Shown piece after piece: positions 1,842 to 4,183 of a stretch of 5,358 bases of DNA; positions within the stretch are counted from its first letter, which is position 1; every line of letters starts with the position of its first letter. The notes below the pieces were generated by a model. It made no database searches. It was not told where the DNA came from and saw only the letters and a program-made list of their open reading frames with translations. Location: contig VGCB01000232.1 of assembly GCA_016870235.1 (NCBI GenBank), positions 1-5,358 on the forward strand. Direction: 5' to 3'. The stretch is from Actinomycetota bacterium. Its GTDB lineage: Bacteria > Actinomycetota > Thermoleophilia > Gaiellales > Gaiellaceae. The translations under genes and the position numbers were made by a program.

Positions 1842-2345
1842 ATGGCAGAGATCGACGACATCCGCGCTCGGCTCGACCTGCTCGAGGCGGAGCGGGAGGT
1901 TCTCCGCAACCTCCACCGGTACGCGCAGTGCATCGACTACGGCGACGAGGCGGGCTGGGTCGACTGCTTCACCGAGGACGGGGTCTTCGACATCCGGCCG
2001 CGGCTCGAAGGCTCGCACCAGCCCGACCGTCTGATCAGCGGGCGGGAGGAGCTCCGGGCCTTCATCGCGCGCCACACGCGGGCTCCCGAGCTCTGGCACA
2101 AGCACATGATCGTGGAGCCGCTGATCGACGTCGATCTCGCGGCCGGCACCGCGACCTGCAGCTGCTACCTGTTCGTGCTGATGGAGAACGAGGACGCCCC
2201 CGTCCTACGCGTCTTCGGCCGCTACCGCGACGAGCTCGCGAAGGGTGCCGACGGCCGCTGGCGCTTCGCGCGCCGCATCGCCGAGGTCGAGTCGATGCGC
2301 AAGGGCCTGCCGCCGTTCGTCGACGGTAGACCGGGTCCTCGATGA
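1842..2345 (+). CDS. SnoaL-like (NTF2-fold) domain protein
   Basis: A complete 167-residue single-domain protein of the SnoaL-like/NTF2 fold (cone-shaped alpha+beta barrel). The family includes polyketide cyclases, ketosteroid isomerase-like and dehydratase-like enzymes, as well as non-catalytic members. The N-terminal helical part with REVLRNLHRYAQCIDYGDEA (residues 18-37) and the following CFTEDGVFDIR are characteristic; later strands with GRYRDELAKGADGRWRFARR (about 126-145) form the usual C-terminal sheet. Acidic and aromatic residues around the pocket are present, but no specific reaction can be read from them. ATG 1842 is preferred over the in-frame GTG at 1824 because family members start just before the LLEAEREVL helix; neither start has a strong Shine-Dalgarno. 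The last residues (VDGRPGPR) run to the edge of the downstream repeat region and may be a degraded or extended tail. It is divergently paired with the LLM oxidoreductase, which suggests, but does not prove, a shared pathway. Confidence 0.85.
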   Translation: MAEIDDIRARLDLLEAEREVLRNLHRYAQCIDYGDEAGWVDCFTEDGVFDIRPRLEGSHQPDRLISGREELRAFIARHTRAPELWHKHMIVEPLIDVDLAAGTATCSCYLFVLMENEDAPVLRVFGRYRDELAKGADGRWRFARRIAEVESMRKGLPPFVDGRPGPR

Positions 2346-2361
2346 ACTGAAGCGTCTGGCT

Positions 2362-2405
2362 GCGCGCGTCTGCTTGGTGGTAGACCGAGGTAGCAGTCGC
2401 GGCGC
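2362..2405 (+). repeat. Class A hairpin 1 (degenerate)
   Basis: The left arm GCGCGCGTCTGCT (2362-2374) pairs imperfectly with 2392-2405 around a 17-nt loop (2375-2391, TGGTGGTAGACCGAGGT). The right arm has one A-to-T change and one inserted base relative to perfect pairing. The loop still matches the class A consensus, so this is an older, decayed copy. It is followed by CCGGATCCTG as in the other forward copies. Confidence 0.75.
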
Positions 2406-2434
2406 ACACCCGGATCCTGTCCACTTGCCCTTCC

Positions 2435-2452
2435 GCGTCTGGCTGAAGCCAG
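2435..2452 (+). repeat. Half class B hairpin fused to a class A linker
   Basis: GCGTCTGGCTGAAGCCAG is identical to the first 18 bases of the complete hairpin at 2792, but the expected right-arm end ACGC is replaced by GCTC and the sequence continues as a class A linker. Only CTGGC-TGAA-GCCAG can still pair. The switch happens at or just after CTGAAGCC, which both repeat classes share. Confidence 0.7.
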
Positions 2453-2466
2453 GCTCTTCTTGCCTG

Positions 2467-2526
2467 CCGAGCTCTCTCGCGTCTGCTGGGTGAGGGACGG
2501 TAGGTAGCAGACGCGAGAGAGCTCGG
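2467..2526 (+). repeat. Class A hairpin 2, perfect 21-bp stem
   Basis: Arms 2467-2487 and 2506-2526 are perfect reverse complements (inner end GCGTCTGCT/AGCAGACGC, outer end CCGAGCTCTC). The 18-nt loop is GGGTGAGGGACGGTAGGT. No T-run follows either end, so a standard intrinsic terminator is not indicated. Confidence 0.95.
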
Positions 2527-2553
2527 ATCCTGAAGCCGGGCTGTGTTGGTTTG

Positions 2554-2613
2554 CCGGGTGCGCGCGCGTCTGCTGGGTGTGGGACGGGAGGTAGCAGACG
2601 CGCGCGCACCCGG
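2554..2613 (+). repeat. Class A hairpin 3, perfect 21-bp stem
   Basis: Arms 2554-2574 and 2593-2613 are perfect reverse complements; the outer stem is CCGGGTGCGCGC instead of the AGCTCTC-type sequence of hairpin 2. The 18-nt loop GGGTGTGGGACGGGAGGT has three GGG runs and a GG, so a two-layer G-quadruplex in the loop is conceivable. Confidence 0.95.
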
Positions 2614-2624
2614 ATCCTGAAGCC

Positions 2625-2641
2625 GGGAACCTGCGGTTCCC
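2625..2641 (+). repeat. Small hairpin GGGAACC-TGC-GGTTCCC
   Basis: A perfect 7-bp stem with a 3-nt loop lies directly after the forward GGATCCTGAAGCC element. A similar G-rich stem (2845-2865) sits next to the inverted copy of that element, so this may be the outer edge of the repeat unit. Confidence 0.7.
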
Positions 2642-2688
2642 TGGGACCCTCCCTTGCGATCGAGTCCGGCACCGCGCCACCGCTCCTC

Positions 2689-2712
2689 CGCGTCTGGCTT
2701 CGGCCAGACGCG
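2689..2712 (+). repeat. Class B hairpin with UUCG tetraloop
   Basis: CGCGTCTGGC (2689-2698) pairs perfectly with GCCAGACGCG (2703-2712) around TTCG. As RNA this is a C(UUCG)G loop, an exceptionally stable tetraloop. No T-run follows. Confidence 0.9.
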
Positions 2713-2778
2713 TCTGCAGGAACAAGGCAGTCTGGACGGGATCGGGCTTCGGTGTTCTGATCCCCGGGGCGGTCTACG

Positions 2779-2793
2779 GCGTCCGTTGGACGC
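2779..2793 (+). repeat. Small hairpin GCGTCC-GTT-GGACGC
   Basis: A 6-bp perfect stem with a 3-nt loop. It overlaps the first bases of the next class B hairpin (2791), so the two structures exclude each other in a single strand. Confidence 0.55.
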
Positions 2794-2814
2794 GTCTGGC
2801 TGAAGCCAGACGCG
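2791..2814. repeat. Class B hairpin with TGAA loop
   Basis: CGCGTCTGGC (2791-2800) pairs perfectly with GCCAGACGCG (2805-2814) around TGAA. The stem is identical to that at 2689. On the reverse strand the loop reads TTCA, one base from the TTCG of the other copy, so this copy is probably in the opposite orientation. Confidence 0.9.
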
Positions 2815-2844
2815 GAAAGGGAGATGCAGGACACGAATGCAGGA

Positions 2845-2865
2845 GGGGTTCCCAAGGGGAACCCC
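2845..2865 (+). repeat. Hairpin GGGGTTCCC-AAG-GGGAACCCC
   Basis: A perfect 9-bp stem with a 3-nt loop next to the inverted GGCTTCAGGATCC element. It probably corresponds to the 2625-2641 hairpin on the other side of the large inverted repeat. Confidence 0.75.
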
Positions 2866-2884
2866 GTTCCCCTGGCTTCAGGAT

Positions 2885-2943
2885 CCGGGAGTGCGCGCGT
2901 CTGCTACGTCGGTCCCTCGCCCAGCAGACGCGCGCACACACGG
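2885..2943 (-). repeat. Class A hairpin 4 (inverted copy)
   Basis: The inner 15 bp (2891-2905 with 2923-2937) are perfect; extending outward to 2885 and 2943 gives 21 positions with two mismatches, the same stem length as hairpins 2 and 3. Read on the reverse strand, the 17-nt loop is GGGCGAGGGACCGACGT and the unit ends CCCGGATCCTGAAGCC, matching the forward copies. Confidence 0.9.
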
Positions 2944-2955
2944 CAAACAAACACA

Positions 2956-2994
2956 GCGCGTCTGGTACCTCGGTCCCTCACCCACCAGACGCGC
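2956..2994 (-). repeat. Class A hairpin 5 (inverted copy, short stem)
   Basis: An 11-bp perfect stem (GCGCGTCTGGT with ACCAGACGCGC) encloses a 17-nt loop that differs from hairpin 4 at two positions. The inner stem has G-C where hairpins 2-4 have C-G, a paired change. It lies 61 bp from hairpin 4 (loop to loop), so the linker is shorter than in the forward 87-bp units. Confidence 0.88.
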
Positions 2995-3055
2995 GAGAAC
3001 ACGGCCGGGCAGGCAATCAACACAGCGCGAGAACACCGCCAGGCCAGACGCTACA
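2995..3055 (-). repeat. Truncated inverted repeat remnant
   Basis: The linker AACACGG...CAACACAGCGCG recurs here as it does between hairpins 4 and 5 (2939-2960), followed by GCCAGACGC (3043-3051), which looks like a lone right arm. The matching left arm is largely missing (GCGCGAGAAC instead of GCGCGTCTGG). It appears to be a decayed third inverted unit, ending about 40 bp before the E1 alpha start. Confidence 0.6.
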
Positions 3056-3069
3056 GTGGATCGGTCCAC
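3052..3069 (+). promoter_or_regulatory. Possible -10 element and small hairpin upstream of E1 alpha
   Basis: TACAGT (3052-3057) fits the TAnnnT pattern 38 bases before the E1 alpha ATG, similar to TACGGT before the SnoaL-like gene; no good -35 was found. It overlaps a 5-bp stem GTGGA-TCGG-TCCAC (3056-3069). If real, the promoter is wedged against the repeat cluster. Confidence 0.25.
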
Positions 3070-3095: not shown

Positions 3096-4139
3096 ATGGC
3101 AGCCAGGGAGGCGGAGCCGGTCGGCTCGCTCCGCGAGGTGAGAGACGCCGGCCTCGATCGCGAGGATCTCCTCGGCATCTACCGGAACATGCTGATCGCG
3201 CGGGGGATCGAGGAGCGCGGGCACATCCTCTACAAGCAGGGCCGCATTCCCGGCTCGTTCTACACGGGCCGCGGCAACGAGGGCTCCGCTGTCGGCGTCG
3301 CGACCGCGATGGGCCCCGAGGACGTCGGGACGCCGGTGCAGCGCGACATGGGCGTCCACATCACCCGCGGGATCGAGCCGTGGCGGATCTTCGCGCAGTA
3401 CATGGGCCGGATCGACGGGCCCACGCGCGGGCGCGACGGGAACATCCACCTCGGCGACCCGCGGCTCGGGCTGCACCCGATGGTCAGCCACCTGCCGGCG
3501 ATGCTGCCCGTCGCCGTGGGCATGGCGCTCGCCTTTCGGATCCGGGAGGAGGCTCGCGTCGCAGTCGCCTGGACGGGCGAGGGCGCGATGGCGCGCGGCG
3601 ACGCGCACGAGGCGATGAACTTCGCGGGCGTCAGACGGCTGCCGGTCGTCTTCGTCGTCGACAACAATCAGTGGGCGTACTCGACGCCGACCCATCTCCA
3701 GTACGCGGTCGAGCATCTCGCCGACCGCGCATCCGCCTACGGGTTCGACGGGGTGGTCGTCGACGGCACGGACGTCCTCGCCGTCTACCGCGAGGCGCGT
3801 CAGGCGATCGAGAAGGCACGGTCGGGCGGCGGGCCGACGCTGATCGAGTCGATCACGCTGCGCATGGAGGGGCATGCGGTGCATGACGACGCCTCCTACG
3901 TCCCGCGCGAGCTGATCGAGGAGTGGCGACGGCGCGATCCCATCGTCCGCTTCCAGGCCTGGCTGCGCGAGAACGCCGACCTGGACGAGGAAGAGGACGC
4001 GGCGATCGGGGAGCGCGTGAAGCAGCTTCTCGCCGACGCCCTCGAACGGGCGGAGGCCTCCCCGCAGCCCGATCCCGCCACCGTCGCCGCGGGTGTCTAC
4101 GCCGATCCGGACGAGCTCGACACGCCACACCACCGATGA
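3096..4139 (+). CDS. 2-oxoacid dehydrogenase complex E1 component, alpha subunit
   Basis: This 347-residue protein is a thiamine-diphosphate-dependent E1 alpha subunit. With E1 beta it decarboxylates a 2-oxoacid and transfers the acyl group to E2-bound lipoate. The N-terminal region holds LLGIYRNMLIARGIEERG (25-42) and GRIPGSFYTGRGNEG (49-63). The ThDP/magnesium motif runs from GEGA (161-164) to VVDNN (187-191), about 30 residues as expected. GEG replaces the GDG of many pyruvate dehydrogenases; GEG is usual in branched-chain E1 alpha and related bacterial proteins. MEGHAVHDDASYVP (257-270) is the conserved active-site loop region. Length is typical. The ATG is preceded by GGGAG (3080-3084) at a rather long distance of 11 bases. 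It is first in an operon with E1 beta and E2. The name pdhA, bkdA1 or acoA cannot be chosen from sequence alone, so no symbol is given. Confidence 0.95.
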   Translation: MAAREAEPVGSLREVRDAGLDREDLLGIYRNMLIARGIEERGHILYKQGRIPGSFYTGRGNEGSAVGVATAMGPEDVGTPVQRDMGVHITRGIEPWRIFAQYMGRIDGPTRGRDGNIHLGDPRLGLHPMVSHLPAMLPVAVGMALAFRIREEARVAVAWTGEGAMARGDAHEAMNFAGVRRLPVVFVVDNNQWAYSTPTHLQYAVEHLADRASAYGFDGVVVDGTDVLAVYREARQAIEKARSGGGPTLIESITLRMEGHAVHDDASYVPRELIEEWRRRDPIVRFQAWLRENADLDEEEDAAIGERVKQLLADALERAEASPQPDPATVAAGVYADPDELDTPHHR

Positions 4140-4183
4140 GCGGGACGGCACCATCGACGAGCCCGTGGGCCTGTCACCGATGA
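4136..4183 (+). other. 15-codon mini-ORF bridging E1 alpha and E1 beta
   Basis: ATG at 4136 overlaps the E1 alpha stop (ATGA, 4136-4139). The frame encodes [15 protein letters not shown] and stops at 4181-4183, again as ATGA with the preferred E1 beta start (4180). The peptide has no recognisable feature. The arrangement could let ribosomes pass from E1 alpha to E1 beta by stop-and-restart, given that E1 beta lacks a clear Shine-Dalgarno. It may be chance. Confidence 0.35.

Follow-up and report, generated by a model that had tools for sequence, protein, structure and literature searches.

A mirrored hairpin cluster in a Gaiellaceae genome as a probable REP/BIME-type mosaic

Main

Between two genes of the window, the whole stretch of 5,358 nucleotides that was analysed, lies a dense and mirrored cluster of hairpins. 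We consider it probable that this cluster is a REP/BIME-type mosaic, that is, an accumulation, outside genes, of non-autonomous palindromic repeats belonging to a type that is dispersed in Gaiellaceae and spread by a RAYT. Judged from sequence, such a mosaic is the best account of those parts that have relatives, the class B hairpins and module M. A dispersed family of extragenic palindromes, mixed with hairpins that bracket RAYT-like genes, is now placed in Gaiellaceae. We found no report of REPs or RAYTs of Gaiellaceae or Thermoleophilia in the accessible parts of the open-access literature; in a word search of that text, Gaiella and Thermoleophilia were absent from REP papers, and ‘Actinobacteria’ from the REP/RAYT papers queried.

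Whole-genome searches covered relatives: 32 genomes reached through loci of the neighbouring E1-alpha gene, 399 genomes from the class to which G008 (isolate CAN_BIN38, with locus L008) belongs and 103 from its family, taken as Gaiellaceae from its named members. Also referred to by handle are G029 (genome of L056, CR_Sed_300A_bin.98), G024 (L034, Gaiella sp. FR_16), G002 (L002), G003 (L003) and G031 (L059).

A mirrored cluster between two genes

The window holds five recognisable genes by open reading frames and Pfam matches, the first of them cut at the window edge, and the coding score adds the apparent start of a sixth; no transposase gene was found in it. Adjoining the stop codon of the SnoaL-like gene (2343–2345) and ending before the start of the dehydrogenase E1-alpha gene is the hairpin cluster, with both genes on the forward strand (Table 1). 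The E1-alpha protein shares at most 81% identity with proteins at 80 loci, whose titles are mostly Thermoleophilia, Gaiellaceae, Gaiella or plain Actinobacteria or Actinomycetota, and on this basis we assign the host to that group. The SnoaL gene is present at none of these 80 loci, so no empty site could be shown. Further downstream, the E1-beta frame is open from a GTG at 4093 and overlaps the E1-alpha end, and the ATG at 4180 may be its true start.

The GCGTCTG/CAGACGC core occurs 17 times between 2347 and 3055 and once outside, at 1733, a recount that agrees with the earlier note and lies far above dinucleotide shuffles of the region (mean 0.275, maximum 3 in 2,000). Hairpins with a stem of at least 9 bp number seven, against a mean of 0.16 and a maximum of two in 100 shuffles, which bears out the dense clustering described there, and a 726-nt stretch folds at −491 kcal/mol (z −18, 20 shuffles). 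Class A units stand in forward orientation in the left half and in reverse orientation in the right half, and the two halves align as one imperfect palindrome of about 710 bp centred near 2751; this half-to-half local alignment, made without a shuffle control, scores 268 and has many gaps in its outer part. The two outer edges match at 14 of 15 positions.

At least five class A hairpins had been counted: four are clear and perfect, with stems of 21, 21, 15 and 11 bp, and the fifth is degenerate. Both perfect class B hairpins, with a 10-bp stem and a tetraloop, were recovered, together with a broken third. The statement that no stem is followed by a T-run needs the qualification of one weak terminator-like match at 2437–2454, with the tail TCTTCTTGCC, a number within chance (shuffles mean 0.4, s.d. 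0.6). Rfam gave no family at gathering score on the repeats, the matches being microRNA models only and all sub-threshold.

Table 1 Features of the hairpin cluster and its flanking genes
Feature	Position	Strand	Basis
SnoaL-like gene	1842..2345	+	Pfam PF13577 (E 1.9e-26), ORF, coding score
Left outer edge, ACTGAAGCGTCTGGC	2346..2360	+	Inverted repeat I15, direct reading
Class A hairpin A0, degenerate	2356..2417	+	Covariance model R1, 66.6 bits (unit in the R1 training set)
Class B, degenerate (GCGTCTGGCTGAAGCCAGGC)	2435..2454	+	Repeats I14 and D2; weak terminator-like match
Class A hairpin A1, perfect stem 21 bp, loop 18 nt	2467..2526	+	Repeat and stem search
Connector, reverse complement CAAACCAACACAGCCCGGCTTCAGGAT	2527..2553	-	Direct reading; within 87-bp tandem repeat D1
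Class A hairpin A2, perfect stem 21 bp, loop 18 nt	2554..2613	+	Repeat and stem search
Module M, left copy, on the reverse strand AAGGGAGGG .. GGGAACC-GCA-GGTTCCC-GGCTTCAGGATCC	2612..2655	-	BLAST to G008, G035 and G161; alignment
Class B hairpin B1, stem 10 bp, loop TTCG	2689..2712		Stem search
Central spacer of the large palindrome	2715..2788		Inverted repeat I9, half alignment
Class B hairpin B2, stem 10 bp, loop TGAA	2791..2814		Stem search; relatives by pattern
Module M, right copy: GGAG, hairpin 2845-2865, then TGGCTTCAGGATCC	2842..2886	+	Stem search, alignment
Class A hairpin A3, perfect core 2891-2937, stem 15 bp, loop 17 nt	2885..2943	-	Inverted repeat I13, model R1, stem search
Class A hairpin A4, perfect stem 11 bp, loop 17 nt	2956..2994	-	Model R1, stem search
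Right outer edge, inverted copy of 2346-2360	3043..3057	-	Inverted repeat I15
Dehydrogenase E1-alpha gene, downstream of the cluster	3096..4139	+	Pfam PF00676 (E 7.1e-68)

Class B hairpins are dispersed between genes of relatives

The class B hairpin reads GTCTGGC-TGAA-GCCAGAC, with a TGAA/TTCA loop, and forms perfect short stem-loop palindromes in the window and in relatives, as REPs do. With at most one mismatch allowed, the pattern GTCTGGCTNNAGCCAGAC has 62 matches in G029, 11 in G003, 10 in G298, 9 in G002, 6 in G351, 3 in G031 and one each in 6 more genomes; it is absent from 91 of the 103 family genomes, and a reversed control gives at most two matches in any genome. A 22-nt form of the window’s class B stem has a match in 5 of the 399 class genomes (G029, G003, G282, G289 and G202); the one inspected, GCGTCTGGCTGAAGCCAGACCC in G029, is part of a paired unit.

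Clustering of REPs in alternating orientation, the trait of BIMEs, is seen in the window pair with TTCG and TGAA loops and in the relatives, where copies are often paired in inverted orientation or arrayed: G029 has four at 51-bp spacing, G298 a pair at a distance of 48 bp, and G003 further pairs or arrays. The copies are also extragenic, none of 38 distinct ones being centred in a predicted gene as against 3,977 of 5,400 random positions. These 38 comprise 35 GTCTGGC and 3 GTGAGGC hairpins from fetched loci, three of them touching a gene edge, and the genes were predicted with a codon-usage script trained on this group. Both neighbouring genes are visible for 27 copies, of which 17 lie between co-directional, 6 between convergent and 4 between divergent genes; for the other 11, one neighbour is beyond the contig end.

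In these respects class B resembles the REP/BIME systems with RAYT/TnpA-REP (REPtrons), which in the excerpts of PMC2817692, PMC3733652 and PMC8266576 are short GC-rich palindromes with a 4-nt loop, extragenic, multi-copy and set in inverted pairs or clusters. Unlike REPs as described in those excerpts, most class B copies are without a constant GTAG/GTGG head. An unpaired GTAG or GT(A/G)G head at the stem foot is found at neither of the two window copies, and in a loose test GTGG stands beside 4 of 36 GTCTGGC copies outside the window, so on the head tag class B does not belong to the GTAG superfamily. Nor, by its tag, does it belong to the CGTC superfamily. CGTC-tagged REPs have a similar stem (8–9 bp) and loop (4–5 nt) length, and CGTC is their unpaired terminal tag, with no dedicated transposase reported, according to the excerpted text of PMC3733652, whereas the window has CGTC within the paired stem (GCGTCTGGC) and the relatives’ copies mostly have GGGTCTGGC or GTGTCTGGC (GGGTC or GTGTC) in its place. 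Locus-specific pairing of the outer class B stem (positions 11–18) is weak, 28 of 2,000 shuffles reaching it; the idea that insertion sites set these outer stems is weakly supported and was set aside.

Sister hairpins bracket RAYT-like genes

A Y1 transposase (PF01797) is found at E 0.001 in 78 of the 103 family genomes, and relatives of the G008 RAYT-like protein in 82, so that mere presence proves little and the flanks count instead. The family-wide Y1 scan missed one match in G298 that other scans found, so its zeros are not firm. In the draft genome of G161, which has module M, no Y1 transposase was detected.

Bracketing the RAYT-like gene of G008 (L249/L331) are GTGAGGC hairpins, GGGTGAGGC-TGAA-GCCTCACCC, three on one side, of which one is imperfect, and one on the other. 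On one side of the RAYT-like gene of G024 (L337) stands GTCCGAC-TTCA-GTCGGAC, and on its other side a 60-bp array of six TGTCCGAC-TGAA-GTCGGACA units. This tandem array of six TGAA-loop hairpins (L337:2185–2509) lies immediately upstream of the gene. GTAG or GTGG stands beside 3 of the 4 distinct GTCCGAC units in G024. For both proteins the sole NCBIfam match at E 0.001 is the REP-associated tyrosine transposase, with scores of 52.7 (G008) and 47.8 bits (G024), both short of the cut-off of 80. HFH and the tyrosine are present in the G008 protein. In the G024 protein the HUH place reads HHH, and histidine occupies the column where the proteins of G008, G029 and G031 have a tyrosine, a column that we take to be the catalytic position of the transposase family; on both counts the G024 protein may be inactive.

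The GTCTGGC, GTGAGGC and GTCCGAC hairpins share the same TGAA loop, and the sets are intermixed: GTCTGGC and GTGAGGC hairpins alternate in G003, and at two places in G002 GTCTGGC and GTCCGAC units lie 45 and 67 bp apart. Class B is tied to RAYTs only indirectly, through this chain of mixed sister hairpins. The REPtron arrangement, in which a RAYT gene is flanked by inverted copies of the same repeat, is found for the sister hairpins only (G008 and G024), and to that extent the Gaiellaceae case is like the excerpted REPtrons, with hairpins flanking Y1 transposase genes in inverted orientation. No GTCTGGC hairpins were seen beside the RAYT loci scanned in G002, G003, G298, G031 and G351. In G029, with its 62 class B copies, the closest RAYT relative (L333, 47% identity to the G008 protein) is flanked by GGGGTCAGACCC-type ends and not by class B hairpins, a difference from REPtrons as those excerpts present them. 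RAYTs that satisfy the criteria of PMC2817692 are reported, in the part of that paper available, in gammaproteobacteria only.

A linked RAYT or IS transposase had been proposed as a mark of such a family; RAYT-like genes turned up beside the sister hairpins, not beside GTCTGGC hairpins in the RAYT loci scanned and not in the window. The earlier suggestion of a REP/BIME-like family is accordingly upheld for class B, which is extragenic, inverted-paired and multi-copy in relatives, and falls short for class A, not seen elsewhere in the collections searched.

Module M and the constant-loop hairpins

Module M has a consensus of about GGAGGG, about 6 nt, GGGAACC-GYA-GGTTCCC and GGCTTCAGGATCC. This connector module, GGTTCCCGGCTTCAGGATCC, is interspersed between genes in three relatives (G008, G161 and G035), and by BLAST and alignment window positions 2601–2658 and their inverted counterpart match repeats in the same three. 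The core, exact or with one mismatch, occurs 5 times in G008, 5 in G035 and 6 in G161. In all, 28 of the 103 genomes are positive, the other 25 having one match (23 genomes) or 2 (two genomes); as these resemble the reversed control (a match in 14 genomes, at most 2 each), only G008, G035 and G161 are counted. In those three the module lies outside predicted genes at all 13 scored places.

A BLAST search of window 2440–2640 in the 32 genomes gave G008 as the sole match, via the connector. The pattern CCGGCTTCAGGATCC is present in 13 of the 399 genomes, eight times in G008 and once in each of the other 12; of these single copies only that of G161 stands in a repeat context, and the other 11, coding-like by eye, were rejected. 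As a sequence pattern only, it also matches 82 viral stretches.

In the right half of the window the order is GGAG, a hairpin, GGCTTCAGGATCC, a hairpin, GGCAAACAAACA and a hairpin, with class A hairpins filling both hairpin places after module M. Complete copies in G008 and G161 keep the same order, going on to a small hairpin, then GGCAACAAACA, intact or degenerate, and then another hairpin. Two copies in G161 (L197 and L206) are without the third hairpin, one in G008 (L083) runs off its contig, and those in G035 are followed by GATCCGGGG-type hairpins, which are of another kind. At L196:1442–1954 in G035, with a predicted gene end on one side and a tRNA gene on the other, lie three 171-bp tandem copies, the first two identical, with module M and a GATCCGGGG..CCCGGATC hairpin.

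In G008 and G161 the loop of the third hairpin is constant, 10 nt long and mostly AYGCTCTYYC, and its stem varies by locus. Connector-bearing loci hold 14 matches to this loop motif, 13 of them with a stem of at least 7 bp, and the 80 E1-alpha loci (581,179 bases) hold one. CTTCAG precedes the motif within 140 bp in 11 of the 14, a proportion that is favoured because the loci were fetched for carrying the connector. Pairing at stem positions 6–16 is 72%, against 42% with arms exchanged between copies, and none of 2,000 shuffles reaches it; several of the 14 hairpins behind this test are related, and some come from one array. All 15 scored places of these hairpins are outside predicted genes. 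At L083 (G008) and L203 (G161) a loop hairpin stands 5′ of what by eye is apparently the same gene (reverse strand, RVLVTGGAGFI-type start), with stems that are paired and similar, not identical.

Class A hairpins of the window

In the class A stem, 7 of the 21 pairs have changed on both sides with pairing kept, which none of 500 shuffles reaches, and 13 pairs are invariant; the five units behind this statistic are related, come from a single place and also supplied the structure itself. A covariance model run over the 399 class genomes gave no convincing copy among the best 12 candidates per genome. Seven matches of 26–29 bits (best 28.5) were rejected, the window’s five units scoring 64–92 and the matches being coding-like by eye and taken as chance. 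With two mismatches allowed, the class A loop pattern had no match in a hairpin context in the 103 family genomes, both of the genomes with a match having a single one that by eye lies outside hairpins, and viral contigs contained no exact match. The description of the cluster as an interspersed repeat is borne out for class B and module M, and not for class A, which in these searches was seen only in the window.

Because they share a place in the common module order, class A hairpins are presumably the window lineage's counterpart of the hairpins with constant loop and variable stem by which module M is often followed in G008 and G161. In that orientation the class A loop is TACCTCGGTCCCTCACCCA, and its likeness to the G008 and G161 loops is too slight for a claim of homology.

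Origin of the cluster

In the REP/BIME-type reading, a RAYT encoded elsewhere in the window’s genome would recognise folded single-stranded hairpins, cut beside them and copy or move them into intergenic DNA, and repeated insertion with inverted duplication would build the mirrored 710-bp structure. We infer such mobilisation for class B; for class A it is a guess. Class A differs from REPs in the excerpted literature by its long constant loop and by stems that reach 21 bp. A rather unlikely further reading is that class A and the ATGCTCTTCC- and ACGCTCTCTC-loop hairpins of G008 and G161 represent, each in its lineage, a single undescribed type of element, usually placed after GGCTTCAGGATCC, with a constant loop and a stem that is set by the site and kept paired. 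The loop would be what a single-strand-specific recombinase or transposase recognises; insertion would be into the tip of a hairpin already present, for example a terminator, and the stem would come from that target, or else the arms would arise when one side of the site is copied into the other. With the constant-loop, site-specific-stem hairpins it can be tested whether such elements enter the tips of hairpins already present. A partial parallel is found in the excerpted text of PMC3733652, where GTAG-23 of T. roseum and GTAG-15 dimers of A. variabilis are REPs inserted within other palindromes and likewise combine a constant inner with a variable outer stem; unlike there, outer pairing is weak in class B and strong only in the loop hairpins of G008 and G161.

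The hairpins could instead be mainly RNA elements, either factor-dependent or T-run-less terminators or stabilisers of mRNA 3′ ends with a protein-bound constant loop, their spread being incidental, which we regard as unlikely. In favour of this reading, 23 of the 27 class B-type copies have co-directional or convergent genes as neighbours, and hence stand behind at least one gene end (distances were not split by strand), and class A stems and the loop hairpins of G008 and G161 stay paired through their changes; the cluster also begins directly after the SnoaL-like stop codon. However, the hairpins face both ways and pile up in tandem, four of the 27 copies are between divergent genes, the loop hairpins at L083, L203 and L223 are on the 5′ side of the nearest gene, T-runs in the window are not beyond chance, and pairing can equally be maintained at the DNA level.

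The single mirrored structure and its closely matching outer edges are what would be expected if the whole 710 bp, with its long terminal inverted repeats, were one MITE or decayed insertion sequence that a DDE-type transposase had moved in one piece. This is improbable: no whole-length copy was found among the best 5 candidates per genome in the 103 family genomes, no plasmid matched, and in relatives the modules inside it are found apart from one another and in different orders. That dispersal of class B and module M in relatives also speaks against a locus-specific array for regulation or protein binding, or a palindrome that arose through local template switching, either of them with no mobile ancestry. 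Such an origin would fit with class A being known only from the window, and self-templated copying would account for its matched stems, but it seems more improbable still.

The sister sets GTCTGGC, GTGAGGC and GTCCGAC offer a way to ask how a transposase discriminates between hairpins and how new REP types arise. A RAYT of a different type, with long inverted ends GGGGTCAGGTCTTCTTCGTTCCAC, is present in G035; its protein likewise matches the REP-associated tyrosine transposase, at 70.8 bits, again below the cut-off of 80, and has a C-terminal extension with weak helix-turn-helix matches. RAYT-like genes with GGGGTCAGGTC...GACCTGACCCC ends, at L242, L241 and L250 in G035 and G025, represent a second Y1 element type in the same family.
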